From NCBI RefSeq assembly GCF_015533855.1, contig NZ_AP024154.1, positions 5,477,501-5,541,500 on the forward strand: a stretch of DNA of 64,000 nt. The letters run 5' to 3'. Below the pieces are notes generated by a model. The model made no database searches, was not told the DNA's origin, and was given only the letters and a program-made list of their open reading frames with translations. The DNA comes from Echinicola sp. 20G (GTDB lineage Bacteria > Bacteroidota > Bacteroidia > Cytophagales > Cyclobacteriaceae). Position numbers and translations under genes: made by a program. This document shows positions 783 through 51,714 of the stretch, piece by piece (within the stretch, counting starts at the first letter, position 1; each line of letters begins with the position of its first letter).

Positions 783-829
783 AAATATATATGGAATTCC
801 ACTTTTATGTATCCTGTATTGGTCTAGGT
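783..829 (-). promoter_or_regulatory. Two-block locus element, copy 1 (weak second block)
   Basis: On the + strand, 811-829 reads ATCCTGTATTGGTCTAGGT. It shares ATCCTG and CTAGGT with the other copies, at the same distance from each other. The second block, 18 bp away at 783-792, matches poorly (about 4 of 10). The element lies about 220 bp upstream of the GH78 start at 592. Confidence 0.5.
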
Positions 830-998
830 GAATTTTGAGTTTACTAAAGAATTCAATAATAAATTTCTTAATTGAAAACATAAAAATGATATCAACTCTC
901 TAAATCAATTTTTGCAAAACGTCGTGAATTCACTCCACCATTTTTTACAAGTAATTCATTCTATCCACGTGATTTTTAATAAAGTTTTATGGATAGTT

Positions 999-1029
999 GC
1001 TCCAACATCTTAAAAATGGATGTTGGAGC
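999..1029 (-). terminator. Perfect 11-bp stem hairpin after a GH78 gene
   Basis: GCTCCAACATC (999-1009) and its exact inverse complement (1019-1029) flank a 9-nt loop, 86 bp beyond the stop of the GH78 at 1115-3955. There is no U-run on either strand, so it may be a transcript-end or stability hairpin rather than a classical intrinsic terminator. Confidence 0.45.
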
Positions 1030-1114
1030 TAGGAGTGTTTAGCATACTTTTTCAAATTTCTGAAACATTAATTCAGGCATTCAACCAAGACTCAATAGAC
1101 CGAACTGGCACATC

Positions 1115-3955
1115 CTAATTAGCTTTGCAATAAGACAATTGATAAGATCCAGACCCTAGGACCAATTCACTATTACTCTTAACAGCACCTTTATGCCTGT
1201 TCAGAAAATCATCTCCCTTTTCTCCATTTACTGTTAGTGTGGAGAATTCCTCCTCTGAAAGGATCACTTTAGCTTTGGTATTGAAAGGAACAGTTAAACT
1301 CATGCTAAAATTAACTCCTTCTACCTTCCAATTATTTCGAATCTCACCATATCTTGTGGGTATGGACACTTTTGTAAAAGTGATTTCTTCAGGGAATACC
1401 GGCTCAACCACAAATTCCTTATATCCTACGGCCTTATAAGAAGATTTTATACCTCCTAAGGATTCAAAAAAGTAAGCGGCAAACCCACTATGCATGGGAT
1501 GGTTTAAGGAATTGGTCAAACCTGACATCTTATCCCATTCAAACTGCCGCTCTGGCCAGGTAGTGAAACCATAATTTAGAATATAGGCTTGACTTGGAAA
1601 AGTAGGCGTGGTCAGAATTTTATGGGCCAGATCTGCATGCCCATACCTACTCAACACAGTATAAATATACCTATTTCCATGTATTCCAGTGCTATGGTGT
1701 CCTCCTTTCCGGATCTCTATATCATAAACCAGCCCATTGACCACCAAAGCAATTTCTTTTTCTGGAACCATACCAAATTGCAGAGCCATGACCGTTGCGG
1801 TCTGGCTACCATACCATTTGTATTCCGTACCTGAAATACCCTCCAGAAACTGTGCATTAAATGCGTCTTTTAGTTCTTGTTGCTCATTAGCTAACTGTGC
1901 TTGGTAGACCATGTCCATATTTATCTTGGCAAACCTTTCCATAATCCCTAATACATCATAAAAATAAGCGTTTGCCGAAATCACCGGATGGCATTCCATG
2001 GCTCCGGGATTTAACCGTCTGTCCCAACGAGGAGGACACCAGTCCCCCATTCCGTTCTGTACCACCCCCTTGTCATCTTTGAAAGTCAGGTAATAATTGG
2101 TGAGTACTTTCATTTCTTCATAATATTCCCTGACCATCGCTGTATCTCCATAATAGACATAATTATACCATGGCAAATACATCGTGGCCACCCCCCAGTC
2201 CAACTTTGCAATGGAAGATGTCCTTTTTCCGGGTGCGATCATCGTTGGTACCTGAAAAGTTTTTTCTGGTTGGTTTTCACCTGGTACAGGACGCATTTGG
2301 GTTCTGATATCCTCCATGTACTTTTTGTAAAAGTTGTTCAGTTCATAATTGTACAATGCATATTCACAAAAGGCATGGGCATCCCCCAACCACCCACACT
2401 TTTCCCTGTGTGGACAATCTTCTGGGATACCATGGATATTGCCTTCAATTGTCCATTTACTTACTTCGTGCATTTTATTGAGCAATAAGTCAGAACTATT
2501 GAAATACCCTTTGTTTTCGATATCGGTGGCCACCATAACCCCTTGGATGGTCTCTGCATCTGGCTTACCCGAAAGTCCAGAAATTTGAACATACCGAAAG
2601 CCATGGTAGCTGAATTTAGGTTCCCAACTTTCCTTTCCCTCTCCCTTACAAATATATCTGTACAGCTGTTTCATACCATTTGCGCCACCTCCTGTAGAGC
2701 CCGGAAAAATCGCCGTACCATCTTGGGTCAATGACTCTGTAGCAATACTTTCGATAACGGTTCCCTCCTTTTCAGCAACTGAGAGCTTAATCCATCCGGC
2801 GATATTTTGACCGAAATCCACAATCCAGTCCCCTTTCTCTCCCTTAAAAATACGCTTGGGATCGAAGGTTCTCAGTTTTTTTATAGGGGGAATTTGTTGC
2901 GCACTAATGTTGGTCACTTTCGGGGATACTTCCTTAGCCTGAAGCCAAATGGAATCATCATACCCAACCTGAGACCAATCTCCTAGTTCATACCGGGCAT
3001 CATACGTATCTCCTCCATAGATATTATCAAAGACAATTGGCCCTGTTGATTCTTTCCAGCTTTGGTCACTGCTCACCGTAGCAATACTCCCATCTAAATA
3101 GGTTATCTCCATTAGTAGCCGTACCGTAGGAGTACCAAATGACAGATCCCTTTCCGACTCTGGATCATTCTTCCATGAAATGTTTTGTCCATAAAAACCA
3201 TTCCCCAATATGATCCCAACAGCATTATTGCCACGCCTCAACGCTTCGGTAATATCATAGGCCACATAATAAGCCTGCTTGTCGTAGTTGGAGGGGGCAG
3301 GATCCAGGACATGATCGCCCACTTTTTCCCCATTGATCAGTAATTCATAATATCCCAATCCACATATATAGGCGCGCGCTTCCTTAATGGCTTTTTTTGA
3401 TTGAAATTCCTTTCTGAAATATCCGGCCGCGTGGCTTGTCACCTTGACGGGATCTTTCATAGCTCCTGTTTTATAATCCCTGAACCGATGGGGCGATTCT
3501 CTGGTGTCCTTGCTTAAGCCAATCCACTTTGATGATCCCCAATTACTGGAATCCACTAGTCCCATTTGGAAGTACTGGGTTGGTGACCAGCCTGTCACCT
3601 CGCCATTTTCGTCCCAGATACGTACTTTCCAATAATATTTTTGTTTGGGCTCCAAATTCCCCCCATCATATGTTATTCCAACGGATTTATTGGATAATAT
3701 CTTGCCGGAACTCCAAAGGTCTCCATGATCATCGTTAAGTAATTCTTTATTTGAGGCCACAAGAATCTCGTATGCTGTCTGCTCCCTACCATAACCAGGA
3801 GCATTCATCACCCATGTGAAAGAAGGTGCTGTATCGATACAGATCGGATTGGTTTGGGAATTGCATGTAAGGTCCGAAAACTCCAATGTTTGTGCAGTAA
3901 GTAGCCAAGAAATACTGCAAAGAAAAAACAATATGAGCATTTTTATACTCTTCAT
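1115..3955 (-). CDS. GH78 alpha-L-rhamnosidase
   Basis: This is a 946-residue secreted GH78 enzyme of full family length. Residues 1-21 are a signal peptide ending TAQ, with no lipobox. The N-terminal fibronectin-like domain (about 25-130, 'APSFTWVM', 'YYWKVRIWD') is followed by the galactose-binding-like insert (about 140-340, 'ARAYICGLGYYELLINGEKVGD'). The (alpha/alpha)6 barrel carries D513-CPHR-E518...G-D525, the conserved acidic cluster of GH78. E802 in 'TTWPER' is the likely catalytic base position. The C-terminal beta domain ends at residue 946. Family role: exo-release of alpha-L-rhamnose. It is monocistronic by spacing (528 bp upstream, with its own copy of the two-block element). Confidence 0.93.
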   Translation of the reverse strand: MKSIKMLILFFLCSISWLLTAQTLEFSDLTCNSQTNPICIDTAPSFTWVMNAPGYGREQTAYEILVASNKELLNDDHGDLWSSGKILSNKSVGITYDGGNLEPKQKYYWKVRIWDENGEVTGWSPTQYFQMGLVDSSNWGSSKWIGLSKDTRESPHRFRDYKTGAMKDPVKVTSHAAGYFRKEFQSKKAIKEARAYICGLGYYELLINGEKVGDHVLDPAPSNYDKQAYYVAYDITEALRRGNNAVGIILGNGFYGQNISWKNDPESERDLSFGTPTVRLLMEITYLDGSIATVSSDQSWKESTGPIVFDNIYGGDTYDARYELGDWSQVGYDDSIWLQAKEVSPKVTNISAQQIPPIKKLRTFDPKRIFKGEKGDWIVDFGQNIAGWIKLSVAEKEGTVIESIATESLTQDGTAIFPGSTGGGANGMKQLYRYICKGEGKESWEPKFSYHGFRYVQISGLSGKPDAETIQGVMVATDIENKGYFNSSDLLLNKMHEVSKWTIEGNIHGIPEDCPHREKCGWLGDAHAFCEYALYNYELNNFYKKYMEDIRTQMRPVPGENQPEKTFQVPTMIAPGKRTSSIAKLDWGVATMYLPWYNYVYYGDTAMVREYYEEMKVLTNYYLTFKDDKGVVQNGMGDWCPPRWDRRLNPGAMECHPVISANAYFYDVLGIMERFAKINMDMVYQAQLANEQQELKDAFNAQFLEGISGTEYKWYGSQTATVMALQFGMVPEKEIALVVNGLVYDIEIRKGGHHSTGIHGNRYIYTVLSRYGHADLAHKILTTPTFPSQAYILNYGFTTWPERQFEWDKMSGLTNSLNHPMHSGFAAYFFESLGGIKSSYKAVGYKEFVVEPVFPEEITFTKVSIPTRYGEIRNNWKVEGVNFSMSLTVPFNTKAKVILSEEEFSTLTVNGEKGDDFLNRHKGAVKSNSELVLGSGSYQLSYCKAN

Positions 3956-4317
3956 AATTAAAGTCGTCTATTTAGGTTAATTGACTTAGGACAATTAATA
4001 AGGCCATTTACATTGAACGGTCCTGATTATTGGAGCATTTCCATAAAACCAGTAAGCCACGTTTCATACTACCGCAATTTTTTGAAGTGTAAAAAATGGC
4101 GTCCACCAATTACACTGGTAGACGCCCAAACCCAATTACCATCAATAATAAATGCAGAATTTTGACTTTGCAAAATAGCATTACCACTAATTAATAATTT
4201 GACCCTTAGAATACTCAGATCAATACGCACAGAAAGAAATCTTTAAAACCCTAAAAAAAGATTCCTTTACTTTGGTGTACTTATTTACCTTTCTTCCTTT
4301 GATTAAATTACTAAAAC

Positions 4318-4364
4318 AATATTAACCAATAGAACAGGTATTTCTATCCTGCTTCATACTAGGT
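4318..4364 (-). promoter_or_regulatory. Two-block locus element, copy 2 (best match)
   Basis: 4346-4364 reads ATCCTGCTTCATACTAGGT on the + strand. 4318-4327 reads AATATTAACC, separated by exactly 18 bp. The gene is read from the minus strand, so the coding-strand order is ACCTAGTATGA..CAGGAT, 18 bp, GGTTAATATT. It lies about 360-390 bp upstream of the GH78 start at 3955. Confidence 0.7.
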
Positions 4365-4413
4365 GTGCTCCTTACATACTGGTAGAATTCTAATAATAAA
4401 ACTAACAAAGCCC

Positions 4414-4452
4414 TAAAAAAATCAAAGGCCATCGTCCTAGCGACGATGGCCT
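4414..4452 (-). terminator. Intrinsic terminator of the lyase-like gene
   Basis: An 11-bp GC-rich stem (AGGCCATCGTC at 4426-4436 with its complement at 4442-4452) has a 5-nt loop. On the minus strand it is followed by a T-rich run (4415-4425). It starts 32 bp past the stop codon at 4484. Confidence 0.85.
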
Positions 4453-4483
4453 GTAATGCACAGATAGTGTTTGCTGATGACGG

Positions 4484-5443
4484 CTATTGATTAGTGAGTG
4501 TCACCCTCGCTCCACTAACATAAACTATTTCTGGATTGCTGACACTCCCGGGAAGGATACCATTGGCTCCTCCTTGAACATATGCACCCCAACGGCATAC
4601 AGACTTCAGGTTGGCGCGGTCCCAAGTCCCTGTGGCCTTCTGTACGTTATCAATATATACCCTGTAGGTAAATCCGTCATCCGTAACCCGCAAATTAAAA
4701 CTCTGCCCCACAGATTTTCCTGTAGATATCCTTTGGTTTTGCGCCCAGCTAACGCCTCTTTTTATAATATCAATGTCCCCAGAAGCTGTTACATGAAGGG
4801 CTACGCCCCAAGCAGGATCGAAACCGTTAGCTGCCGTAGCTTTTGATTGGAATATCTTAACATCTTTGGCTCCGTTATGGGCAGCGACATGATAACGTGC
4901 CGAAAAGGTCATCACCTTATTGTCATCTCGCCGAATGCCCAAATTGGGGGCATATGCCTCACTTCTGGCTGCTCCAACACGTGAACTTTGCCAATTCTCA
5001 TCACCGGGAATTACCCTGAACACTTGGGTATTACCATCCTTTTGGTACCAGCGAGTACTCTCATTGGGATCAGTAACCTGTGAATTCAATGGATTATGCC
5101 ACCTCATATCATTGTCCGACATTACCAAACGGGTTCCCGTACTGGTCGTTTCTATCGTGGAATTGGGAACATCTATGAAGGTCCCTCGGGTATCAATTGT
5201 GCCATTTGCTACCTTATTTCTAAGTGCTGTCTGTTCTGCAGAAGTAGTCGCCCTCGGCTCACTACCGATTAAATTGGTCCATGTAGGATTCCACCCCTTA
5301 TAGGATGCGGTGGTGGTCGTTAACGTTTTCACGGTGTCATTTTCCTCTGGCAGGGAAGTTTCCTCTCCCACACAAGAAGTAAACAAATAAATGGTCGTTA
5401 TGACAGCGACTCTACCTAGTAAATTACACGTCGTTTTTGTCAT
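4484..5443 (-). CDS. Jelly-roll polysaccharide lyase-like lipoprotein, probable PL28-type ulvan lyase
   Basis: This is a 319-residue lipoprotein (hydrophobic segment ending FTSC, Cys24). Residues 25-70 are a Thr-rich linker. Residues 75-319 form a beta-rich jelly-roll-like domain with 'FSARYHVAA', 'VKIFQSK' (Lys201), 'WGVALHVT', 'GQSFNLRVTDD' and the C-terminal 'RWGAYVQGG' (Tyr288), which recalls the 'YFKAGxYxQ' strand of PL7-like lyases. The length and fold fit the catalytic module of PL28 ulvan lyases. That assignment comes from recall of the family plus the rhamnosidase/sulfatase/GH105 context, and it is not proven. Lys201 and Tyr288 are only candidate catalytic residues. The alternative is another PL7-clan lyase or a glycan-binding lipoprotein. 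A broken paralogue lies at 31551-32493. A terminator follows and the two-block element precedes. Confidence 0.6.
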   Translation of the reverse strand: MTKTTCNLLGRVAVITTIYLFTSCVGEETSLPEENDTVKTLTTTTASYKGWNPTWTNLIGSEPRATTSAEQTALRNKVANGTIDTRGTFIDVPNSTIETTSTGTRLVMSDNDMRWHNPLNSQVTDPNESTRWYQKDGNTQVFRVIPGDENWQSSRVGAARSEAYAPNLGIRRDDNKVMTFSARYHVAAHNGAKDVKIFQSKATAANGFDPAWGVALHVTASGDIDIIKRGVSWAQNQRISTGKSVGQSFNLRVTDDGFTYRVYIDNVQKATGTWDRANLKSVCRWGAYVQGGANGILPGSVSNPEIVYVSGARVTLTNQ

Positions 5444-5979
5444 TTTTGGTTAGGTTATTTGGTTTATTTAAATTATAATTATTGGCTATAGTGTGTCCAG
5501 CAAACACTTCTAGTCATTATACATGGATAAAAAACACTTATGCTATTTATTTACCTAAAGAAATCTTCCTTTTGTATAATTTCCCCTAGAAAGTTTTAAG
5601 CACAGATATCCTAGTATATTTTTACGAGATTGGTTGGCGACTGTCCTTTATCACCCATCATCTCTCTCGTGGGCAATTGATGCCCATAACCTTCTGTGTA
5701 TCCATCAAAAATTCAATTCATCAATACTCACCTCGCGCCTCCTTTAAACCAATTTTAACCAACTTAAATCCAAAAATCATCCTGTATCATACTAGGTTTA
5801 ATTTTTCGTATATATATTTTCCTAATTAGATCATTTCCCAACTAAGTAGAAACCGAAAAATGCAAACCCAATCAGTATGCAGAGGATATAAGAAAAGGAA
5901 TGTAGGGTAAATAACAATACGTACGTGAGGTAGAAGCGTAGATTGACTATTTATCAAAGAGGGCACAAGCTAGCCACGT
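5444..5979. other. Intergenic spacer with regulatory element
   Basis: This 536-bp AT-rich spacer lies between the rhaT stop and the lyase-like gene start. It contains copy 3 of the two-block element (5751-5797). I see no gene or hairpin terminator in the rest. Confidence 0.65.
5751..5797 (-). promoter_or_regulatory. Two-block locus element, copy 3
   Basis: 5779-5797 reads ATCCTGTATCATACTAGGT and 5751-5760 reads AATTTTAACC on the + strand, with an 18-bp spacer. It is oriented towards the lyase-like gene that starts at 5443, about 310-335 bp downstream. Confidence 0.7.
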
Positions 5980-7034: not shown

Positions 7035-7095
7035 GTTTGTTAATTAAATTATGAAAAAAATATCCCTTCCACCAATGTAACCCACTATTTAGAGG

Positions 7096-8508: not shown

Positions 8509-8593
8509 GTTTCTTTATTATTTTTAATTTGGCGTGTCTCTTAAGTTTTCTGTCAAAACCCAATGGTTCCGGTATTTTAAGGATTACCTAGAC

Positions 8594-12001: not shown

Positions 12002-12048
12002 ATATTTAACCTAACTGTCTCAATTGACAATCTGACTTTATAATTGCA
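12002..12048 (-). promoter_or_regulatory. Possible degenerate copy of the two-block element in the divergent promoter
   Basis: On the coding strand of the GH78 operon, GGTTAAATATT occurs just left of the AraC start. 18 bp further is a block matching the consensus at roughly half its positions. It is weak, but the spacing is the same as in the six better copies. Confidence 0.3.
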
Positions 12049-12057
12049 CAAATTGAT

Positions 12058-12948
12058 ATGAAAAGTAATCAGTATAGAAAATATTTGATGATTTTCGAGC
12101 AGGATAAACATTGGGGATTTTGGATAAATGACCTTGGTAGTACGAAAATCAAAAAAAACGAGGCATATCCCTCAAAAGGACATCCAGGAAGCTATATGTT
12201 TACCTGGCAAAACGGAAGGGTACTGAATGAATTTCACTTTGTGTTAATCACAGATGGGGAGGGGGTCTTTGAGAGTAAAGAAACCGGTAGAAAAAAAATC
12301 GTCAACGGAGATGGATTTTTATTGTTTCCGGGAGTTTGGCACAGATACATGCCCTTAAAAAAAACGGGATGGACAGAAAGATGGGTGGGATTCTCGGGCC
12401 CCATTGCAACGCAATTCATGTCAAATGGTTTCTTTGCCCCTAAAAATGCCATCATTCCCGGATGTGGCAGAGAAACCGTTCTCAATTATTTTGATTCTTT
12501 ATTTCATTTATTCAATAATGAACCATTTGGATTTCAAAGAATAGCTTCAGGACTCTGCATACAGCTTTTAGCAGAAATCAATAATATACAATTAAGCAGC
12601 AATCAGGACCACACTATCAATTCAATGGTTTCCCACACCAAATATTTAATGTATGAAAAAATCAACGAATCCATTGATCTGGAGAAAATCGCCTCAGGCT
12701 TAGGGGTCAGCTATTCAAAATTCAGGGTTGATTTCAAAACGCAAACCGGCACCTCTCCTTTACAGTACTATCTCCACTTAAAAATAGAAAAAGCAAAAGA
12801 AACCTTACTAAGAACAAAGATGAGCCAAAAGGAAATTGCTTACGCATTGGGTTTTGAATCTGATTATTACTTCAACCGCTTATTCAAACAAAAAACGGGT
12901 CTTTCCCCTGGTCAGTTTAGAAAAAAGTTTCTGCCCTCCTCCCCATAA
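12058..12948 (+). CDS. AraC-family transcriptional regulator
   Basis: This is a 296-residue regulator. The N-terminal ~170 residues form a cupin-like sensor domain ('FHFVLITDGEGVFESKETGRKKIVNGDGFLLFPGVWHRY'). Residues ~195-292 form the double helix-turn-helix, with 'DLEKIASGLGVSYSKFRVDFKTQTG' and 'SQKEIAYALGFESDYYFNRLFKQKTG' followed by 'SPGQFRKKF'. It is the only plus-strand gene in the first 54 kb and is divergent from the GH78/isomerase/rhaT operon, 245 bp away. This suggests that it senses a sugar, plausibly rhamnose, and controls that operon (inference from context). Confidence 0.93.
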   Translation: MKSNQYRKYLMIFEQDKHWGFWINDLGSTKIKKNEAYPSKGHPGSYMFTWQNGRVLNEFHFVLITDGEGVFESKETGRKKIVNGDGFLLFPGVWHRYMPLKKTGWTERWVGFSGPIATQFMSNGFFAPKNAIIPGCGRETVLNYFDSLFHLFNNEPFGFQRIASGLCIQLLAEINNIQLSSNQDHTINSMVSHTKYLMYEKINESIDLEKIASGLGVSYSKFRVDFKTQTGTSPLQYYLHLKIEKAKETLLRTKMSQKEIAYALGFESDYYFNRLFKQKTGLSPGQFRKKFLPSSP

Positions 12949-26322: not shown

Positions 26323-26443
26323 TTTTTATGAATTTTATTAATTGGCTCATTGAAAATATTACAGTTAACTTTTCCTTTTGCCGTTATGATTTGACAGAAA
26401 TCGGCCAAATTGGGAACTATATGAACCCAAGTATCTTGAACTT

Positions 26444-26490
26444 AATGTTAATCAATATTATGAAGTTGATTATCCTGCTTCATACTAGGT
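26444..26490 (-). promoter_or_regulatory. Two-block locus element, copy 4
   Basis: 26472-26490 reads ATCCTGCTTCATACTAGGT, identical to copy 2. 26444-26453 reads AATGTTAATC, with an 18-bp spacer. It is oriented towards the gene that starts at 26322. Confidence 0.7.
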
Positions 26491-26627: not shown

Positions 26628-29600
26628 TTATTTTATAATTAGCTTTTGATAATATTTTTCCCCGGATTGATCAATCGCCGTAATGACGTATACACCACTT
26701 CTGAAGACATCTCCTTTGGATAAATGAAGCATTTGCTCAGATACTGCTCTGTTATAAACCAATCCCCCCACTCTATTATGGATGAATACTTGGACTGTCC
26801 CCATTTCACCAAAATCAATAGTAAAATCCTTAATGGTGGGATTAGGATATACTACCAATTCGTGTTGACCACCAGAGGAAGTTGCACTATCCTCATTGAC
26901 AAATAAAGTCCTCTCTTCTGAACGGGAAGTGCAGTTGCCATTTACAGAATACACTACTTCATTATCGATTACGGGTATAGCTTCATCAACCGGAACAGTA
27001 ACAGTTACCTGCTCAAGGACCTTATTCTGATAATTGTCCTCCAAGGCAAGTACAATGGTGTATACCCTGCCATCTCCTGTACCGGATCTTTCCTGCATTA
27101 AGTCCACAGTGCTGCAATTTGGACCGATAACAATATCATTTAAAGTGTTCCCGTCTTCATCAGCATTTTCTGCTTCATCAGAACTTACCGACAAAATAAC
27201 TACATCATCAATATTTAAATCTGCACAATTATCTGAAACCGAACCAACAAAATCAGCAACATTAAACGTTCGATATTTGTGGTTAGGAGGCCATATGGCA
27301 ATGCTCTCTGTTGCAAGGTTGATCACGGGTGCGATGGTATCAAGAACTGTCACAATAGCCCTACAAGAGGCTGAATTATTATAGGGATCGGTAACCGTTA
27401 AAACAACGTCATTGGCACCAATATTTCCACATGTAAAGTTGGTCTGCGATGCTGAAAAAGAGACGACACCGCTCAAATCGGTACTACCACCATCCAGCTC
27501 CTCAGCCGAAATAAGGGCATTCCCCTCTTCGTCCAAATACACTGTGATGTTATTACAAACAACACTTGGAGCTGTCCGATCTACCACCTCAACAGCAACC
27601 CCCTCAGAAACGGAGCTGATACGCTGATCATCATATGCGACAGCATCTATGACAAAACTTCCTACTTCTGAAGCCGTCCAGGTTACATCAAATGGAGCTG
27701 ATTTGGTTTGAGCATAAAGTTTCTTATCCAACCTATAGTCAATCTGGGTTATGGAACCGTCATCTATTGCATTGGCTTCTAATACTGTACTTTCTCCCAA
27801 TTCTATGGTACTATTATTAAGCGGATTTCCCATAACAACTGTAGGAGCTTGATTTACCACTCCCCACACCTCCAGCTCAGTCACCGAATTCCAAGAACTT
27901 GCAGAGTTTCCGTGACCAACATAACGAACATACCTGGCATCCACCGGGTTGGAGAGGGCAAAATCCTCTAAACCGGTCGTCGATCCACTTGACGCTACAT
28001 TCGTCAAAACATCTGTCCAACTAATTCCATCAGTAGATACCTGAATATCAAAGTAAGATTTTCGACGATCTCCACTAAGGAAGGCAGCCCTGATGCTACC
28101 TATATGAAAGGTTTCGCATAAATCCATGGTCAGGGTCTCCCCATCCCCACTCGATGACCATCGTGTCCCCAATTTACCATCGGCAACATTGCCCGGGACG
28201 TTTGGAGCCTGGGAGGAGCTAGCTGTAATATTACATGCATCGAGTTTTTCTTCCGCGACATCACAGCCAGTGCTTGAAAACAATACCGTTTTCTCCCCAG
28301 TATTGCTCTCATCATCAGTAGCAATAGCGGTAAGTTCATAGCTCCCCCCTTCTGGTAAGGAAAAGGTAAACTCATAGGGCATTTCATCAGCCCTTCCCAA
28401 TGATATGCCATCAAGCAACAGCTCTACATTAGCGATATTCCCATTAATATCTACTGCATCTACCTTAACGGTTATGGACTGATTTTCACATAGTTGTTCC
28501 GGTAAGTTGATTTCATTTACGATAGGACTGCTGGCAGGGCCTGTCTTTGTAAACTTGAACTCCTTAAAGAAAAACAACCAGCTGGTAGTACCATCACGTG
28601 GAGTAAATATCATTTGAAGACTGGCATTGCTCATGTTTTCAGGGATGATAATTCCCGAGGCTGTATACCATTCATAATCGCTAAAATTGGCTCCAGTTCC
28701 AGTGATCACCACATCACCAAGGTCCTTACCGTCCAAGAGCAACTTAATATTGGCGCTTTTCCCAATTCGTGAGGCGGCTAAAAATGACACTTCATATTGC
28801 CCCGAATCAACGGATTCAAAGGTATAGGAAAGCCATTCTCCATCCCGGATACCACTCACTGCAAAATCTCCCTGAACAGCATCAATTTCCACGTCTTCCT
28901 TTCCGGCTATAGCCCGCCGGGGATTTCGTTCCTCTGGAAGACCTCGCTCGTATCCCACGTTAAAGTCATGATAAGCGGCTCCTTCGCCTCCAATATCAAA
29001 ATGCCATGCTTGAGTTGTTCCTGGAATAGTCAAATTGGTGTAGGGCATACGGTTCACCACCTTTAATTCAAACCTTTTATAGGCCTTGTTATTTTGATCA
29101 TCCTCAGTCACAATTTCCATGGAGTACACGCCCTCCGGCAAATTACTTAATTGGGCTGCGTCCTGGTCCTCATCATTCCAGGAGTAGGGAGCACTGGAAT
29201 CTCGCCTGACAAAATTGCCATTGATATATAAATCAGCATATTCTATGTTTTCTCCGTTTACAGGAGTAATATTGGATACTACTACGATTTTGCCGGGAGC
29301 AGTGATTATATCGTACTCCCCATTACTATTGAGCGAGGGGGTATTGATCTCAATGGTTGGAGCTCCCTGCAATTTAAAGTCATAAGTGAACAAGTAGAAC
29401 TGAGGCCTAGTAATCCCCGAGGGATGATCAAAAGTAAAGGTTATCTCTTGCAAACCTTCATCAAACCAAATGCTATCCATATTTACCTTAGGATTTTCCG
29501 TAAAGTCGGGCAAGGCTGGTTGGTCCGGGTCATTGGTAATGGTGGTAAACCGACCTACTTCGGTCAGGGCACCAAATGTTCCTTTGTTTAGAATTATAGT

Positions 29601-30890
29601 ACCGCCATATTGTTTGGAACGCTGAACTTTCAAATCTACTCCAACGTCATAGTAACCAGCTTTCTTCACATCAATTTTATAGGTAACCCATTCATCCTTG
29701 TATACATGCCTGATAAGTCCTTCCTCAATGATGGGCTCATTCCTAAGTTTATAGTCATGAGCATCGGATGCCTTAAAGCGGTCAGGAACAGAAATCGGAT
29801 CTTTCATTATTCTGATTTGAATGATCCTATCACTGGTATTGCCATTGATATCGGTGGCCACCGCCTTCAGCTGATGAATACCTGTAGTCAAGTCATCAAG
29901 CAGTCCCCCGCTCCACTCATAGGGTGCCGCATAATCAATCCCAATGAGTTCATTATTCGCATTGTATAATTTTATATTTGCTATAGGATCTTGAGTGTAA
30001 TCAACTGCGACGTTTACTGTAATATTGGCATGGTTCTGAAAATAATCATCATTTTGAGGTGCTGTAAAAGACAAATGAGGTTGAATCCAGTCATCAGCTG
30101 TTTTTTGCTTGATAAGCCAACGAGCCACCCCAAACGTCCCTCCGGCATCATCAGCATCCGGAAATACTTCATCATTATTGTAACAGTTCACATTAAAAAT
30201 CACCAAATCTGACTTTAAGAAATGAGGCTTATTTTTCTCCTTAAAATATCTTTTTAAATAATAGTAAAATGCTTTGTAGGCACTAAGGTTGTACTCGTGA
30301 TTGCGTTGGTAAGTGGTCAGGAAGGAACATATTTTATTATTGCTTACACAGAATTCCAGCAAATCCGCGGCTTGTTGGTACTTAGCAGGGTCGTCCATCT
30401 GAAATTCAAATTCCGCACCATCGGCAACCAATATTTGGGCACGAAAATCATCACTCCTGCTATCTGTATGAAATTTACGGGTATGGGCCAACATTGGAAA
30501 AGGTGGATTTTGAGCCATAATAGTGTTCCAATCGTTGACATTCATGCCGTCCCCTTCCTGATAGAGCATAAAAGCCAAGACATTTGACCCTTCAGGCATT
30601 TTGGTAACTACAGTAGAATTGGCCACATCCTGATTGTGCCACACTGCATGGTGCAGGGCATTTTTATGGGTAAGATTGTTAAAAATGGTGGCTATTTGTG
30701 CATCCGAATAACCTGCCCAATCCTTGTAGGTTAATCGAATACCATCTGCATTTTCTGCAATAAATGGATAGTTGGATTTATCCAATATCCGTGCATCCCC
30801 ATCCCTGGTGATGGTTGGGACCACTTTTTGGGCAAATAGGGAATTACATAGTGCGAAGCAGAAGGTTATAATGGGTATAATCTTTTTCAT
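26628..30890 (-). CDS. Large T9SS-exported multi-CBM protein with an unrecognised N-terminal domain
   Basis: The start at ATG 30890 gives a clean signal peptide (IIPIITFCFALCNSLFAQ) and 1420 residues. The frame extends 49 codons further upstream but that part looks like leader. Approximate domains: 20-275 unrecognised, possibly catalytic; 278-360 Ig-like; 367-510 CBM6-like ('IIEEGLIRHVYKDEWVTYKIDVKKAGYYDVGVDL'); 520-613 Ig-like; 617-777 second CBM6-like ('GEWLSYTFESVDSGQYEVSFLAASR'); 790-877 Ig-like; 880-1007 F5/8-type C ('NVADGKLGTRWSS'); 1013-1310 Ig/HYR-like; 1343-1420 Por secretion sorting domain ('VVYPNPTIKDFTIDF'). It is probably a cell-surface or released glycan-binding enzyme or adhesin. 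Copy 5 of the two-block element lies ~370 bp upstream. Confidence 0.85.
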   Translation of the reverse strand: MKKIIPIITFCFALCNSLFAQKVVPTITRDGDARILDKSNYPFIAENADGIRLTYKDWAGYSDAQIATIFNNLTHKNALHHAVWHNQDVANSTVVTKMPEGSNVLAFMLYQEGDGMNVNDWNTIMAQNPPFPMLAHTRKFHTDSRSDDFRAQILVADGAEFEFQMDDPAKYQQAADLLEFCVSNNKICSFLTTYQRNHEYNLSAYKAFYYYLKRYFKEKNKPHFLKSDLVIFNVNCYNNDEVFPDADDAGGTFGVARWLIKQKTADDWIQPHLSFTAPQNDDYFQNHANITVNVAVDYTQDPIANIKLYNANNELIGIDYAAPYEWSGGLLDDLTTGIHQLKAVATDINGNTSDRIIQIRIMKDPISVPDRFKASDAHDYKLRNEPIIEEGLIRHVYKDEWVTYKIDVKKAGYYDVGVDLKVQRSKQYGGTIILNKGTFGALTEVGRFTTITNDPDQPALPDFTENPKVNMDSIWFDEGLQEITFTFDHPSGITRPQFYLFTYDFKLQGAPTIEINTPSLNSNGEYDIITAPGKIVVVSNITPVNGENIEYADLYINGNFVRRDSSAPYSWNDEDQDAAQLSNLPEGVYSMEIVTEDDQNNKAYKRFELKVVNRMPYTNLTIPGTTQAWHFDIGGEGAAYHDFNVGYERGLPEERNPRRAIAGKEDVEIDAVQGDFAVSGIRDGEWLSYTFESVDSGQYEVSFLAASRIGKSANIKLLLDGKDLGDVVITGTGANFSDYEWYTASGIIIPENMSNASLQMIFTPRDGTTSWLFFFKEFKFTKTGPASSPIVNEINLPEQLCENQSITVKVDAVDINGNIANVELLLDGISLGRADEMPYEFTFSLPEGGSYELTAIATDDESNTGEKTVLFSSTGCDVAEEKLDACNITASSSQAPNVPGNVADGKLGTRWSSSGDGETLTMDLCETFHIGSIRAAFLSGDRRKSYFDIQVSTDGISWTDVLTNVASSGSTTGLEDFALSNPVDARYVRYVGHGNSASSWNSVTELEVWGVVNQAPTVVMGNPLNNSTIELGESTVLEANAIDDGSITQIDYRLDKKLYAQTKSAPFDVTWTASEVGSFVIDAVAYDDQRISSVSEGVAVEVVDRTAPSVVCNNITVYLDEEGNALISAEELDGGSTDLSGVVSFSASQTNFTCGNIGANDVVLTVTDPYNNSASCRAIVTVLDTIAPVINLATESIAIWPPNHKYRTFNVADFVGSVSDNCADLNIDDVVILSVSSDEAENADEDGNTLNDIVIGPNCSTVDLMQERSGTGDGRVYTIVLALEDNYQNKVLEQVTVTVPVDEAIPVIDNEVVYSVNGNCTSRSEERTLFVNEDSATSSGGQHELVVYPNPTIKDFTIDFGEMGTVQVFIHNRVGGLVYNRAVSEQMLHLSKGDVFRSGVYVITAIDQSGEKYYQKLIIK

Positions 30891-31550
30891 ATTGAATAGT
30901 TTAGGTTTTAATTTATTATTAAGGTTATCTTGATTTTTTTTAGTTAGGGATGGATATTGATAGCCGTCCATTACGTCTGAAATGCTTATTTCTGCCCCAC
31001 AACGCTTAGCCTTGTTGAGTATTCTATGATAGGGCACTAGAAATTGAGGTTATCTGTTCTTATCCTAAAATTTAAATTAATTGATCCTCTTCTAAATAAA
31101 TTCGAACGTCTAAATAGGAATACTAGCCTATGAAAATGTCTACAAAGGGGGATAGATGTAAATAAACTTTAAAAGCAATCCAACCGTTTTCAGACCTCCA
31201 ACAGTTAGTAATTCAAAGATTAACAGTAATATTAACCACTTTAAAAACATAGGTTATCCTGCCTCGTATTGGCACATAGATTGGCAAATCATGAGAAATA
31301 CAAAATAAAACCACCACAATCAAGTTTTCTATAAAAATCAGGGACTCATTCAAATAAAAAATCTATATGTCCATACTACCTCGTAAAAGCACAACAGCTT
31401 CTAACATGCCAAGATCGTCAAAGGAAAATTTCTCAGGGTTATTTTAGAAAATCAGCCCGATAACCTTTAAACTTTCATTATCTTTTATGTGGCACTGGCA
31501 CTCATCTAAATCAATCCAGAGGAATTTAATCTCCATTTTCCCTTCTTACC
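30891..31550. other. Intergenic spacer with regulatory element
   Basis: The 660-bp spacer holds copy 5 of the two-block element (31228-31274). 30891-31037 is open in the frame of the downstream gene, but it lacks a signal peptide and reads like leader. I see nothing else. Confidence 0.6.
31228..31274 (-). promoter_or_regulatory. Two-block locus element, copy 5
   Basis: 31256-31274 reads ATCCTGCCTCGTATTGGCA and 31228-31237 reads AATATTAACC, identical to the second block of copy 2. The spacer is 18 bp. The first block diverges at its outer end. Confidence 0.6.
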
Positions 31551-32493
31551 TTAGTTTTTTATAACCATTACTCCACATATAAATATCACTTGGGGATAAT
31601 TGACATTTCCGGTAAGTACACCGTCACTACTTCCTTGAACATAGCCCCCCAGCGGCAAACAGACTTTAAGTCCCCTCTATCCCAACTGCCTGCTGCCATT
31701 TCAACGTCATTAATAAATACCTTGTAATTATAACTATCATCGGTCACTCGTAGGTTGAAGCTCTCTCCCACTGATTTACCCGTTGATATACTTTCATTCT
31801 ACCACCAAGTAATTTCCCTTTTTATGATATCAATATCTCCAGCAACTGTCACATGCAGCCCCACAACCCAAGCAGGATTAATTTCTCCTTCTGCAGTAGC
31901 TTTAGATTGGAATATTTTGAGGTCTTTGGTAACATTGAGTCCTTCTACATGGTAAAGTGCAGAGAAGGTCATGACCCTATTTTCATCCCTTCTAATACCT
32001 AAATTAGGGGCATAGGCTTCACTTCAGCCTGCCCCCACACGGGTGCTTTGACAATTTTGGTCTCCGGGAAAGACCCTAAAAACCTGTGTGTTTCCATCTT
32101 TTTGGTACCATCGGATACTTTCATTAGGATCAATGGCCTGGGAATTAAGGGGGGGGGGTACCATCTCATTTGACTGTCTGACATCACCCGGCGGGACCCG
32201 GTGCTGGTTGTCTCTATACTGCCATTCGGCACATCCACAAAGGTCCCTCTGGTATCTATGGGGCCATTGGCCACCTTCTCCCTCAAAACTGTCGTTTCTT
32301 GGTCAGTGGCTGCACTCGATTCATCACCTATTAGATTATTCCAAGTAGGGTTCCAATTGGAGTAGGAATGTAAGCCAGATGGAAGCACCTTCTGATCTTT
32401 TTTATTTCATCTTGTACTTTCCTCTTGCACGCATGCGTAAAAGAGGCCTGTCAATAAAGTGCTTAGCACAAAAATATTAATGGTTAATTTCAT
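31551..32493 (-). pseudogene. Broken paralogue of the PL28-like jelly-roll lyase lipoprotein
   Basis: The region is alignable along its whole length with the intact gene at 4484-5443: lipoprotein signal (ending LFYAC), 'NWNPTWNNLIGDESSA', 'VANGPIDTRGTFVDVPN', 'VMTFSALYHVE', 'LKIFQSKATAE', 'GESFNLRVTDD' and 'DRGDLKSVCRWGA'. At least five lesions are visible. TGA at 32409-32407 follows the signal. A frameshift occurs at a run of ten C on the coding strand (32149-32158). TGA is at 32026-32024 and TAG at 31801-31799. A one-base deletion near 31643 falls inside the 'RWGAYVQG' strand. The original stop is TAA 31553-31551. The gene is dead unless recoded, which is not credible with five lesions. Confidence 0.9.
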
Positions 32494-32566
32494 GCCTATT
32501 TTTTGGTTAGAATGGTTTTAGAGTTTGATTGACTTTATTCGTATTTTTTCCAGATAATCCTCTTAA

Positions 32567-42630: not shown

Positions 42631-42633
42631 GGA

Positions 42634-45675: not shown

Positions 45676-45977
45676 AAATTAGAGATATTTTAGGGGTATA
45701 AATCATATATTTGGGAATGCCTAAATCTGCTTAATTTTCAGTTTCAATAGTCATTCATTTTTGTATATAGACAGAATAATAGCTTCTTGAACAGCTTATG
45801 CCATCATATTGATGCCCAGCTTAACATTGTAAATTAATTGGTATTTAGGAAACCAATTGTAAACAGTAGTATGTTATTCTGCCGAAAGGCATTTCCTGCC
45901 ATATTTGAAACCGTAAGAGGACTTATATCTCCTATATCATGAGCTCCTTCCAGTAGAGTAAATATTTGATCACCTCA
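45676..45977. other. Intergenic spacer
   Basis: This 302-bp AT-rich gap lies between the DUF1080 and GH2 genes. It has no clear hairpin terminator and no convincing copy of the two-block element. Confidence 0.5.
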
Positions 45978-46694: not shown

Positions 46695-46823
46695 TTTATT
46701 GATCAGTTAATTAAGTTGATTATAAGCTCCCGAATTGGAAAAAGTATCCATTCATTGATATCATTTCCTCAAGAAAATATTCTCTAGGGCACTATCCATT
46801 AACCGGCTCTTAAAAGCAAGAAC

Positions 46824-47957
46824 TTATTTCTGCAGTTTTAATACCTCACTGCCCGCCAAAAGAAAAGCACCAGTCCCAAAGTTTTGCCAACTATCCACAC
46901 TAGCCGGTTCTGGTGATGCCCCAATATTTTGAACCCAACCTACCATCCCATCTTTATGCTGGCACTTTACCAAAGCCTTCCAGGCTTTTTTAACCACAGG
47001 TAGATAGTCCTCTTTATTTAAATACCCATTATTTATTCCCCAAGCAAGGGCATAGGTAAAAAAGCCACTCCCACTTACTTCACCATGGTCAAAGGATTCA
47101 GGACTCAACAAACTGGTTCTCCATAGCCCATCCTTCTGCTGTAGAGCATTAATCCGCTTAGCCATTTGAACAAATAACTCTTCATAAAATTCTCTGTGTT
47201 CATAGTCCTTGGGCATATCTTCCAGGATCAAAGCCAAGCCTCCTATGACCCAGCCATTACCTCGTGACCAAAACACCTTTTTACCATTTTTCTCTTTAAT
47301 ATCTTTGTCCGAACCTTCCCATATAAACCTAGCATCTCTGGCAAAAAGATGTTCTTCCTGATCATACAGTTTATCGTAGGTTTCCTTGTAATATTTATGC
47401 ATTGCATCCAGATATTGCTGGTTCCCAGTATGTTTAGCATAGAGATTAATAACAGGAGGAGCCATAAAAAGGGCGTCACACCACCACCATAATATATTCT
47501 GGACTTTTTCTCCATTTTTAGGATTTTTCCATTTATTCTCCTCAAACAAATGCTCATCCAAAAAAGCTTTAGTAGGCGCTAAGTCTACCAAGCCCTTTCT
47601 TCCCTCTGTCATATCTACATAAAGATATCCGTATGAAATGGCTATATCATCGGCATGTTCTCTCCTAATAAAGGTTTCCCAGCCATTTTGGTGTCCCATG
47701 TTTTTAAGGGCTGCCATAAACAACTGGTCTCCTGTCGCTGCATGTGCTCTAGCTACCCCGGTATAATAGGCACCATTGGTCCAGTCAGTAGGGTCTACAG
47801 CATAAATAGGATGGGCTTCCTGCCATTCCATGGCGGCTATCATATCCTCTTTGATCCTATCCTCATCGAAAACACTTTGGGCGCCAACTGGTCCAAGAGT
47901 AGCTATGACTATTATAATATTGATTACTATTAACCGAGACAACAGTTTATCCATCAT
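46824..47957 (-). CDS. GH105 unsaturated uronyl hydrolase
   Basis: From the ATG at 47957 this gives 377 residues with a signal peptide (residues 1-25, ending GPVGAQ). Further upstream in-frame Met codons (to 48011) would only lengthen the signal. The (alpha/alpha)6-barrel motifs '[19 protein letters not shown]', '[14 protein letters not shown]' (Asp161, matching the catalytic Asp of YteR-type GH105), '[17 protein letters not shown]' and 'DGLWRTSLL' are all present. The reaction is hydration-driven removal of delta-4,5-unsaturated uronic acid from oligosaccharides made by polysaccharide lyases. This independently argues that the locus uses lyases. It lies 107 bp downstream of the sulfatase-GH78 fusion. 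Confidence 0.92.
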
Positions 47958-48064
47958 TTTAAGTATCATTAAGTAGTTTATTGAACAGTTTGATAAGCTC
48001 GTCAAACCCAAACCTTAAAAAGCTTGATTGATTAACAAAATTATGAGTGGCTAAGAGAGCTTAC

Positions 48065-51000
48065 CTAAAAGGAATTTATTTTGAGTTGAATAGTATGCTT
48101 ACCGGGCCCAAGCCTAACACCTTCAAAAGCGGAAGGTACTTTTTCCCCATTATGGATAAAATCCTTACCGTTTACATCTTTCAGCGAAAATTCAGCTACC
48201 ATATTTGCAGGTATTTCAATTTCATAAGTTTGTAACCTAGGGTTATTGTAGGTATAGCTTGCCTTAATGGGACCTTTGATGGTTGGTACTTGAATTGAAC
48301 TGGATTTTAAATCGGCGAGTTGAGGTTGGATCGTAGTAATCCCAAATCCAGGGGTTTTTGGTTTAATTCCCCACAAACCCCTAGGAATAATATTAGCAGG
48401 AACTGCTCCCCAAGCGTGATTCCAGTCAAGATTAAATTTGTACTTGTTATCCCAAGCCTCTAAAGTAATCGTAGAACCTATCCGAATCATATTGTACCAA
48501 CTTCTATCACTGGTATCGGTTAACAGTTCTAGGGCATAATCATCTTCCCCTGCATTATAAAGTCCATCCATCAAATACTGGGAACCGTAAACACTGCAGG
48601 CCATGCGTCTGGATTTCACAAATTCCACCACTGAAGCTTTATATTCATCGGGGACCAATCCAAAAGCAAGAGGCATCATATTAGCGTGTAAAGAAGCATG
48701 ATCCGTTCCAAGTCCATCTACATAAACTCCTCTTTCTTTATCAAACATTTGGTCGTTAAGGGCTTTTTTTACTTTGGCAGCCCTAACATCAAAATCCAAG
48801 TATTCTTGAGTTTTGCCCAGTATCTTGGCAAACTCAGCCATAATCTTCATGTTCTCAAAATAGAATGCATTGATAACCGTATTGTAGGGCATAAACACAA
48901 AGCCGTCTTGCTCACCAACAAATGTACTATCCCCACCAAACCTTGCTGGTGGCCAATCCACAATATCGGTCAGCTTTTTATGGTAACCCTCTTCAAAACC
49001 CAACTTAAGCATGTAATCATGGTCCACACTGTCCGAAGTGATCAATCCATCTTCATTGGCCAATTCATAAAGGGTTTTATATTTTAAAGGCTCATAATAC
49101 CGCTCTATTAGTTCAGTGTTTCCAGTATACATATAATCAGCATATAACATCAATGCCACGTGTTGTTGCCATTCCGTTGGCCAGGTAGGGTGTTCCATAA
49201 AATATTCAATGGTTCTTCGGGCCATCGAATACTCCTGATCTGTGGTATAGTGGCTTAACTGGTTCAGGTAGGCATCCGCTTCATAAGGGATACGTTCACG
49301 GTCCCCATCCACATAAAGTCCATTGAATGTGGTTGCCTTAATGGAATACTTGCACAAATCCCAAATTTGATTTAAAATGTCATCTGAACTTTGGAAAGAA
49401 CTGGCCTTGTCGTCAAAATAAGTATGGTACGCTAACTGTGTAAAATTATCAGCACTCACTTCTCCTTTAATACCTTCGACTTCGGCGTAGCGATAAGGAA
49501 CCAATATTGGTGTACCCTCCGGTAAGGGAAGTGCTTTGTTTGGCAAAGTATTTTTAACGTTTACAAGAACAGGTAATTGATAATTTGTTTTACCGGGTTC
49601 TACCCCAACCTTTATTTCCTGAAAACGGATATTGCTTTTTTCGGGCGGGGTACGGTTGATGTATTGTCCATCCAACATTTCTCCCACTCTAAATACCAGA
49701 GTATCCGGCTCTTGTGTTTTATAGTTAAACTCCATCGTGGCAAAAGCCGCTTTGCCGAAATCCATAAAATAAACGTCCTCTCTTTTTTCAAATACCTGAG
49801 GATGGACTTTACTTACTTCTTGGGTATTGGCAGTTGAGATCATACCATTATCACTGCTACCTATCGTAAATTTTTGAGGCGCAGAATAATCTACTAATCT
49901 ATTTTCTTCATCCCAAATTCTTACTTTCCAATAATATTCCTTCCCTGGTTTCAAAGGGGCCCCCAGATATTCCACATTATTTGAGGTAGAAGAACGCACT
50001 TGACCACTGTCCCAAAGATCACCATTATTGGAATCAATTAACTTTCTGTCAGAAGCGACTAATATTTGGTAGGCGGATTGAAACTTTAACAGACTTGCTA
50101 TTCTCCACCCAAACTCAGGTTTAGCATCCAGCACCTTAACACCGTTTTCAGGTTCCCGAATAAGCTCTACTGTCAAACCGGTGGGCGCAGCCCTATAAGC
50201 ATCACCAAATTTTTCAATGAGTTCATCACATTTTGATCGTAGTTTCTCTGCTACCTCTTTATATTTTGGGTCATTGATTAGGTTGTTAATTTCCAATGGA
50301 TCCTTTTTAAGGTGGTAGAGTTCCTCAATGGTCTTATCATTCACATATCGGAAATATTTCCATTCTTCTGTACGAACCCCCTCACTTGGAGGAATCTCCT
50401 CAAATTCCCAAATGTGTTCAATTAACACCGTATCCCTTTGTAAATGTCTATTTTCTTTATTCACAAGAGGCATCAAACTCTTTCCCTGCCAGCTGCTGGG
50501 AGCTTCAACACCCGCTATATCTGCAATCGTGGAGGTTACATCGATATTTAGGACCATGTCTTTTATATCACGCTGCCTTTTAACTCTTGGATCATAAATG
50601 ATCAGAGGAACGCGAATTGAATTATCATACATGAGCCATTTTCCTGCAAGTTGCCGTTCTCCCAAAAAATAACCGTTATCTCCCATAACGATAATCACGG
50701 TATTTTCATCCAAGCCCCTTTCTTTCAGTTTACTACGAATCTTGGTTATTTCTTGATCAATCCCGGATATCATCCTGTAATAGCCTTTCAAACTATGTTG
50801 GTATTTCTCTGGGGTATCATATCTCCAAGTCCAACGGAGCCTATTAAACCCATCTCTAACAAACTGTGGTTGGGACTGAAAATATTTGTCATCCCCTAAA
50901 ACCGGTCCCGGAATGGTAGTGTCTTCAAGGAGGTTTGCAGTGGTATTCTGCCAAAAATACTGTTCAGGGGCACCATCATGGGCATGAGGAGCGCTAAAGC

Positions 51001-51592
51001 TAAGGGACAGACAAAAAGGTTGATCTTGTGGCGCCTTGTCTATAAAATCCAATGCTTGTTGACCAGTGTATCTAGTTAAATGTACCGTATCACCATCCAA
51101 AGTTTTGTAGTAATATCCCCTGCGGTCTTTGTATTGATTGTTTCGGTCATAAGATTCGTATTCGTCAAATTGCTTGTCCAAAGCATCGTATCTGACACCA
51201 TATTTACCATAAAACGCCGTATAATACCCGCCGTTTTTTAGTACCGTTGGATAAGAGTTTCCCATATACTCTTCCCTAATATTCCCCGTCTGAAAATTAA
51301 AATTATGGGATCTTTCATGTAATCCGGTAAAAATACTTGCCCTACTGGCAGCGCAAATGGGAGTAGTAACTATAGCCGTTTCAAAATAGGTTCCTGACTT
51401 GGCCAGATTATCCATTTCAGGAGTTTGGACATATTTATTCCCCGCATATCCCAAGGCATCAAAGCGTTGGTCATCTGTCAAAATAAAAATAATATTTGGT
51501 TTATTGAGGATTTTAGCTTTTTCTTGAGAAAAGGTTAAATTTAATCCAAACACGAAATATATAAAACTAAACAGTAAGTTAAATTTTTGCAT
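48065..51592 (-). CDS. Bifunctional sulfatase-GH78 alpha-L-rhamnosidase fusion
   Basis: This 1175-residue secreted protein (signal ending NLTFSQ, residue 23) is a two-enzyme fusion. Residues ~30-480 form a complete S1 sulfatase: '[20 protein letters not shown]', formylglycine site C80-A-A-S-R, 'FYGKYG', '[11 protein letters not shown]', and '[30 protein letters not shown]'. Residues ~485-1175 form a GH78: '[27 protein letters not shown]', '[11 protein letters not shown]', and the barrel cluster VD762-GD764-RE766-RIPYEAD773 in place of the usual DCPHRE. This GH78 part lacks the usual galactose-binding insert. Comparable S1_25-GH78 fusions are known from ulvan loci (recall, e.g. Formosa agariphila). 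It would desulfate then release rhamnose. It heads the operon running to GH105/DUF1080. Confidence 0.93.
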
Positions 51593-51667
51593 CTAATTTG
51601 GTTATTTTGTTTGGCTCCAATATTAAATATCAACCGAGCTAAATTATTAATAAATGGTCTCAACTTC

Positions 51668-51714
51668 TAAACTACGCTGTTTAGAAATTTTGACTATCCT
51701 GTATCCTTATGGGG
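51668..51714 (-). promoter_or_regulatory. Two-block locus element, copy 6 (degenerate)
   Basis: 51696-51714 reads ATCCTGTATCCTTATGGGG, and the second block at 51668-51677 matches about half of its positions at the 18-bp spacing. It lies about 80-105 bp upstream of the fusion gene start at 51592. Confidence 0.5.

Follow-up and report, generated by a model that had tools for sequence, protein, structure and literature searches.

A conserved operator-like site at a fixed distance from a predicted Bacteroidota −7 box in likely ulvan loci of Echinicola and related bacteria

Organization of the locus

Here we describe a repeated promoter-like element in a 64,000-nucleotide stretch of DNA (hereafter the window) from Echinicola sp. 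20G (Cyclobacteriaceae, Cytophagales), which covers positions 5,477,501 to 5,541,500 of contig NZ_AP024154.1 (C1:5477501-5541500 of the 5.79-Mb source genome, G000). According to Pfam, the window encodes GH78, GH106, GH88 and BNR_4 proteins, sulfatases and a sulfatase–GH78 fusion, the last presumably of the type present in the ulvan locus of Formosa agariphila. In public data, relatives of the fusion were found in strains that include Nonlabens ulvanivorans and Hyunsoonleella ulvae, and in Algibacter marinivivus the same fusion shares its locus with a PL28 ulvan lyase; ulvan, a green-seaweed polysaccharide, is therefore the likely substrate of these loci. The ulvan genes of F. agariphila lie in polysaccharide utilization locus (PUL) H (PMC12858550).

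Six genes or gene groups of this region are preceded by a common element made of two blocks. Its structure and distribution suggest that each copy is an activator-dependent composite promoter, in which block 1 would be a 17-bp operator and block 2 the −7 box of the primary sigma factor. On genome comparison, this assignment and the regulon that follows from it appear very probable, and the six gene groups are probably switched on together.

Six copies of a two-block element

The element was delineated in an earlier sequence-only reading as a pattern of 27 specified bases, consisting of block 1, an 18-bp gap and block 2. Four strong copies (4318-4364, 5751-5797, 26444-26490 and 31228-31274, all on the minus strand) match 22 to 27 of these bases (Table 1) with a gap of exactly 18 bp in every case, and in three of them block 1 is identical across its 17 specified bases; the observation of a shared two-block element is confirmed. 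With up to 3 mismatches allowed, the pattern has 3 matches in the window and 0 in 100 shuffles. At the same tolerance, a shortened pattern occurs 5 times in the whole G000 genome, 4 times in the window and once before a SusC-like gene (assigned by similarity), at a distance of 54 kb on the left side of the window. No Rfam family matched at the gathering threshold and no tRNA was found in the window, and an RNA family or tRNA was rejected as the identity of the copies.

Two weaker copies, at 783-829 and 51668-51714, stand at background level in simple matching, in which the best position of the window after the four strong copies reaches 18 of 27. A comparative matrix was built up stepwise from nine strong sites in three Echinicola genomes, by which the weaker sites were recovered. 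The iterated matrix detected 28 sites in five genomes, including 781-829, 51666-51714 and their counterparts, and a 34-site matrix (M34) contains all six window places; in the latter, the identical sites of Algoriphagus winogradskyi (G338) and Algoriphagus chordae (G324) were counted once and G169:784348 was retained despite its poor −7 box. In a scan of the window with M34, the six places rank 1 to 6 (scores 43.5 to 30.6), followed by a score of 9.4.

Independent evidence comes from the R1 profile, an ungapped alignment (A1) of 16 sites from the sister genomes G169 (Echinicola pacifica DSM 19836) and G234 only. Searched against G000 (150 of 4923 first-look candidates scored), R1 yields ten matches with E<0.05, the next having E 0.26. 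These are not spread over the genome: all ten fall within C1:5394754-5529213, 135 kb of linked polysaccharide loci, and comprise the six window sites and four sites outside the window (Table 1). The outside matches at 5431224, 5423292 and 5394754 belong to a second linked locus, whose E. pacifica counterpart, on contig C13, has sites at places that match by gene order. R1 detects both weak copies, which we accept as real because orthologous promoters carry them. A further possible copy at 12002-12048 is rejected, the best nearby matrix scores being −7.6 on the minus and −14.3 on the plus strand. All six window sites lie outside open reading frames (ORFs) of at least 150 aa and each is directed at the next ORF on the same strand, in keeping with the reported position of the copies upstream of genes in one orientation; all 28 places that score >20 in the scanned regions are intergenic.

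Table 1 Predicted composite promoters, further R1 matches and regulator genes. Positions are those of the window unless marked C1.
Feature	Position	Strand	Bases matched; R1 E	Genomic context	Details and counterpart sites
Composite promoter 1	4316-4364	−	27/27; 1.4e-5	before GH78 1115-3955	operator 4345-4361; −7 box TAATATTG 4317-4324; M34 score 39.9; orthologous sites upstream of GH78 in G234 (5947960; 77% identical) and G169 (806850; 68% identical)
Composite promoter 2	5749-5797	−	26/27; 2.0e-7	before 319-aa protein 4484-5443	orthologous sites G234 5946259, G169 765026
Composite promoter 3	26442-26490	−	25/27; 2.0e-4	before GH78-like 23995-26322	orthologous site G234 348759, upstream of 82% identical gene
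Composite promoter 4	31226-31274	−	22/27; 0.0031	before CBM6/F5_F8 multidomain gene 26628-31037	no relative of the gene in the G234 and G169 regions compared
Composite promoter 5	781-829	−	17/27; 0.0026	before GH78 ending at 592	exact TATATTTG −7 box; counterparts G234 5951311 (70% identical gene), G169 819842 (gene pair, 58% and 67% relatives)
Composite promoter 6	51666-51714	−	17/27; 0.0080	before sulfatase–GH78 fusion 48065-51592	same site ahead of fusion gene in G169, G234, G338, G324
R1 match	C1:5473204			before rhaEW	
R1 match	C1:5431224			before GntR gene	
R1 match	C1:5423292			before SusC-like gene	
R1 match	C1:5394754			before DUF5722 gene	
HTCS, 1414 aa	C1:5455279-5459523			18-22 kb left of window	Reg_prop, Y_Y_Y, HisKA, HATPase_c, Response_reg, HTH_18
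AraC_binding + HTH_18 protein	12058-12948	+			Pfam
GntR-family regulator	51821-52864	−			Pfam; core paralogs are GntR + Peripla_BP_3

The GH78 gene behind promoter 5 spans w-2170 to 592, extending beyond the left end of the window; its type was assigned from the G234 relative, which is 70% identical. No sequence match in Pfam, NCBIfam or PDB was obtained for the 319-aa protein encoded after promoter 2, which is 72-81% identical in two sister genomes and is a candidate new ulvan enzyme.

Several further features adjoin these promoters. Just downstream of promoter 5, at 746-794 on the plus strand, part of a core occurs in reversed orientation, TGTAGGATAC (score 9.4), which might be a second weak site. 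At 4085-4130 on the minus strand, a leader situated between promoter 1 and the start of the GH78 gene ends in a terminator-like hairpin (GGCGTCTACCA..TGGTGGACGCC) followed by a T-run; its 50-nt fold has −21.9 kcal/mol, the G234 version has −22.7 kcal/mol with changes in the stem, and the hairpin was not recognised in G169. This leader might give rise to a short RNA or act as an attenuator. Upstream of promoter 4, the minus strand of 31280-32500 resembles, by eye, a broken gene for a secreted protein, with an early stop and a long one-base run.

Block 1 resembles an AraC-type operator

In Echinicola, block 1 is a 17-bp site with CAGTA at positions 4-8 and CAGGATA at positions 14-20. In 41 sites upstream of the fusion gene that lie outside the training set (loci L135-L178; one Echinicola, the other genera taken as Flavobacteriaceae, of which Algibacter was checked), the two boxes form a clean 10-bp direct repeat, CAGGA(C/T)A and CAGGATA. 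The block ends 20 bp ahead of the −7 box and thus spans the −33 position.

AraC-family class II half-sites, such as AraC I2 and those of RhaS, are 17-bp asymmetric sites with two boxes one helical turn apart that overlap the −35 region. Block 1 shares this geometry, being asymmetric with its two boxes one turn apart, as expected for an AraC-type monomer; it differs in having no conserved upstream second half-site. No upstream column of the 34 aligned sites exceeds 0.35 bits. A tandem copy 21-22 bp away was considered as a second half-site and rejected: offset 22 has a z of 3.05 in the core autocorrelation, but the mean core score there is −14.9, with 1 of 34 sites above 0.

Block 2 matches the −7 box

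The −7 box of Bacteroidota promoters, TAnnTTTG, lies at −12 to −5 (PMC9723704; PMC7366714). In the 34 distinct sites, T41 is present in 34, A42 in 32, T46 in 33, T47 in 26 and G48 in 21, and GGTTAATATT is the strong-copy version of the box. Since the earlier matrices contained the box, sites were reselected by positions 1-21 (block 1) only. A −7-like octamer starting at position 41 is then present in 31 of 38 intergenic but 1 of 39 coding Echinicola cores, against a background of 0.0075 per position; for intergenic cores of Flavobacteriaceae, the count is 101 of 120. Most of the 38 Echinicola cores and 40 of the 120 Flavobacteriaceae cores had first been found with the box, so that the held-out counts carry more weight. 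When the core matrix is taken from sites of G169 and G234 and applied to G000 and G169 C13, the box accompanies 15 of 21 intergenic and 1 of 25 coding cores; in Flavobacteriaceae, outside the training sites, it accompanies 61 of 80 intergenic and 2 of 24 coding cores, the next offset having 7. Seven of the 38 intergenic Echinicola cores have no box at position 41; in two of these, orthologs of each other according to gene order, it is displaced by a single base.

The recurrence of the box at one offset when cores alone are selected indicates that block 1 is an operator and block 2 a promoter box, with a constant spacing that corresponds to the distance between a bound protein and the polymerase. 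We accordingly read block 2, as predicted from these counts, as the TAnnTTTG −7 box of the primary sigma factor and not as a second operator contact. The sequence-only reading had seen two selected contacts with fixed geometry and had recognised no known Bacteroidota promoter in them; the fixed spacing stands, and the assignment of block 2 does not. The element departs from the canonical sigma-A promoter (PMC7366714; PMC9723704) in its upstream part, where the −33 TTTG box is replaced by the CAGGATA stretch, with C14, A15, G16, G17 and T19 in all 34 sites. In Flavobacterium johnsoniae, the −33 motif was not identified (PMC7366714).

Extent and conservation of the regulon

Across five Cyclobacteriaceae genomes, all 35 sites share the strand of the first ORF downstream, at a distance of 13-533 bp, and their targets include GH78, GH106, the sulfatase fusion, SusC-like, GntR and RhaEW (TIGR02632) genes. 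Promoters of the fusion gene contain a site scoring >9 in 44 of 47 public loci from two orders, or 41 of 44 without the three training loci; the misses are L144, L162 and L174, and L135 (9.8) and L146 (9.3) are marginal. On the reverse strand of the 500-bp fusion promoters, scores >10 occur in 2 of 47 (L163 and L161). Orthologous promoters in two orders keep the site, and the earlier view of the copies as one regulatory element of the locus is supported. In the profile search, the Algoriphagus fusion sites have weak E values of 1.6 and 2.6 and are counted only for their orthologous position.

A matrix made from the 41 fusion sites finds 104 places scoring >15 in 44 loci of 12 to 25 kb each, against 1 after shuffling; 100 of the 104 are on the strand of the fusion gene and 40 are training sites. 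No site >15 is found in 160 kb of other contigs from two fusion-locus genomes, by which we reject the motif as a general trait of Flavobacteriaceae DNA. The A. marinivivus locus (L209-L212 and L175) has 14 sites in 92 kb, which precede a KduI uronate-type operon with TRAP-like genes, a xylose-type operon, and SusC-like, PL28, GH78 and fusion units, the genes of the uronate- and xylose-type operons being named mostly from their N-termini. Catabolism of uronate and xylose fits the sugars of ulvan. At this comparative level, the composite structure, the fixed spacing, the orientation, the shared gene set and the conservation in two orders are established.

The eight Echinicola genomes without the ulvan-locus hybrid two-component regulator (HTCS) described below do not form a clean control, having three profile matches with E<0.05 (two in G146 and one in G255). 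Of these, one match in each genome was inspected, and neither is among relatives of the ulvan locus enzymes; the G255 match, however, lies close to a GH88-like gene (33%) and is 7 kb away from another HTCS. Outside the loci, G169 has a single additional profile match, at C1:636961 (E 0.0048).

Related sites were also observed at core loci of Echinicola. A CATAACAGTACAGGATAG-type site precedes a permease-like gene that adjoins a GntR gene (L118, about 1811164; also G234, G245, G220, G190, G146, G169 and G255), in some genomes with an inverted repeat, TACAGGATA..TATCCTGTA. A CAGAACAATACAGGATTG-type site precedes the gene next to a different core HTCS of ~1241 aa (L126, about 1874459; L124, 118785; L125, 300127; L123, 1799284); in G000, the neighbouring gene at this locus is GH28, followed by GH88.

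Candidate regulators

The sequence-only reading took the element for the operator of the locus regulator, naming the AraC or GntR protein of the window or an unseen regulator. The operator assignment holds for block 1 only. As a common reader, the AraC protein is unlikely and was set aside: its best matches in the site-rich sister genomes G169 and G234 have E 2.3e-14 and 4.9e-14 only, and neither genome has an ortholog. The GntR protein is the less likely reader, because the sites are non-palindromic, the promoter spacing is fixed and its distribution fits worse. The likeliest reader is a regulator other than these two.

For Echinicola, the first candidate is the 1414-aa HTCS encoded to the left of the window (Table 1), which on present comparisons has about an even chance of being the reader. 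Relatives with at least 60% identity occur in exactly the 3 of 11 Echinicola genomes that have the strong motif, and relatives of 61% occur in the two Algoriphagus genomes that retain the fusion site; across the relatives of at least 60%, the DNA-binding domain is 74-85% identical. The gene is co-localised with susC/susD-like genes and sites in G000, G234 and G169, which is not the case in 103 kb of A. marinivivus. Many sites are distant from it, on contig C13 in G169 and at C1:348759-357859 in G234, so that the HTCS would have to act in trans. HTCS genes lie within 10 kb of the fusion in at least 9 of 47 loci and are the regulators seen most often there, regulators having been identified through visual inspection and tblastn in the 40 largest clusters and not by a family search. 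A tblastn search of the 47 fusion loci with HTCS, GntR and AraC gave any match in 11. Thirty loci around the best HTCS matches contain 5 sites in 212 kb, one of which is the ulvan fusion site itself.

The likeness to known HTCS operators is partial. HTCS motifs of Bacteroides consist of two directly repeated sites with a spacing of about 21 bp (Ravcheev et al. 2013, PMC3878776); as here, they were defined by comparative genomics at polysaccharide loci with a linked HTCS, SusC/SusD-like genes and an AraC-type domain. By contrast, the present element has a single site of 17 bp, which contains a 10-bp repeat and keeps a constant distance of 20 bp to the −7 box, and occurs in Cytophagales and Flavobacteriales rather than in Bacteroides.

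Weighing the explanations

The explanation that we favour, and consider moderately probable, is an activator-bound composite promoter with the HTCS as first candidate reader in Echinicola. In this model, the operator, with its two CAGGATA-like boxes 10 bp apart, would lie at about −49 to −33 if the −7 box ends at −5, where the −33 element belongs, and the sigma-A −7 box would follow 20 bp later. A sugar-responsive activator bound to this operator, probably through an AraC-type domain, would recruit RNA polymerase both at the rhamnose catabolic operon and at many of the transcription units in the ulvan loci. The role as a promoter in vivo, activation by the bound protein and the AraC-type domain of that protein are what we infer from this arrangement.

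Several observations weigh against it. The co-occurrence of HTCS and sites in Echinicola is confounded, both belonging to one locus, and among 42 fusion-locus genomes the fusion site occurs in 25 of the 26 that have the HTCS type and in 14 of the 16 that lack it (the type being 38-41% identical over its full length and about 47-58% in the DNA-binding domain, with 14 first-look candidates scored per genome; the 14 include the marginal E. shivajiensis site, 9.8). In A. marinivivus, with its 14 sites, 103 kb have no tblastn match (1e-5) to HTCS, GntR or AraC, and G225 has a 57% HTCS with no site >10 in its region. Related sites stand at core loci of HTCS-less Echinicola genomes, beside GntR/permease-like genes and another HTCS. 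The tandem repeat of ~21 bp published for HTCS (PMC3878776) is absent here, and among held-out intergenic cores the box at offset 41 is missing in 19 of 80 from Flavobacteriaceae and in 6 of 21 from Echinicola.

Some of these points favour a reader encoded elsewhere in the genome and conserved across Bacteroidota, for instance a stand-alone AraC or a DeoR-type protein, with the linked HTCS and GntR genes as bystanders. We regard this as the most serious rival, albeit clearly less probable. It would account for the fusion site in the genomes without the HTCS type and for the A. marinivivus locus, where the sole regulator recognised, in a subset of ORFs scanned, is an FCD-type GntR of 207 aa. 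Rhamnose regulators of the DeoR family bind direct repeats with a 10-11-bp period (PMC3870299), which resemble the 41-site fusion set in period and the present sites in their rhamnose gene targets. Unlike that system, the loci have no DeoR gene among the Pfam-scanned proteins (a subset of ORFs, with no whole-genome DeoR search), and the fixed promoter spacing suggests activation. More generally, no candidate protein was found for such a reader, the Flavobacteriaceae genomes not having been searched whole for AraC or DeoR, and HTCS is the commonest regulator near the fusion.

That the site is instead the operator of a repressor overlapping the promoter, namely a GntR-family regulator with a sugar-binding domain of the 51821-52864 type, seems improbable. 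Such genes accompany the loci in all three motif-rich Echinicola genomes, with relatives of 61-63% identity in the sisters; four sites precede GntR genes; and a related site lies between the core GntR and permease-like genes in 8 of 8 genomes inspected, five of them without the ulvan HTCS. The locus sites, however, are asymmetric by column counts, with a 10-bp direct repeat in place of the dyad of GntR operators, which appears only at some core GntR/permease promoters, and repression would have no need of a fixed spacing to the −7 box. The two Algoriphagus genomes keep the fusion site with a single GntR match (E≤1e-30) of 43-44% on another contig, and GntR relatives lie within 10 kb of the fusion in 3 of 47 loci, two of them at 43% identity or more.

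Less probable still is the view that both blocks contact one operator on one face of the DNA and that the element is no promoter. In the four strong copies, block 2 (GGTTAATATT) is indeed conserved beyond TAnnTTTG, and a distance of 22 bp separates GGATA from GGTTA, as in a tandem repeat of the AraC type. Block 2 shrinks to TAnnTTT(G/A) at the same place, however, in the weaker Echinicola sites and the Flavobacteriaceae-dominated 41-site set, with GG and AATATT unconserved. Unselected remnants of a duplicated segment, such as a repeat or mobile element, could explain the identity of block 1 in three copies but are refuted by the differing spacers and flanks and by conservation that is limited to operator and box and kept at orthologous promoters in two orders. 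The original interpretation is, overall, partly supported.

Implications

No operator for ulvan loci is described in the literature searched, which was mostly without subscription papers (including PMC12858550, PMC12125979 and PMC3870299, each in part). The promoter box itself is already known; what is new here is an operator of polysaccharide loci whose geometry differs and which is spread over a wide range of taxa. It raises the question of why the operator is conserved although the linked regulator is not. We tentatively entertain, as rather less likely than our favoured explanation, a general promoter code, CAGGAYA-N3-CAGGATA-N20-TAnnTTTG, for ulvan, rhamnose and uronate genes from Cytophagales to Flavobacteriales, served by one conserved trans-acting activator or by interchangeable regulators that share the code. 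If true, the code would control loci even where an HTCS, a GntR or no recognised regulator is linked, and a single activator might be encoded outside the loci.

The motif offers a direct test of the identity of the regulator that senses the inducer. With its defined promoter geometry, it would make the ulvan regulon predictable from sequence in Echinicola and in many marine Flavobacteriaceae, and would tie sulfatases, rhamnosidases, lyases and rhamnose catabolism, and in Algibacter probably uronate and xylose catabolism as well, into one unit.

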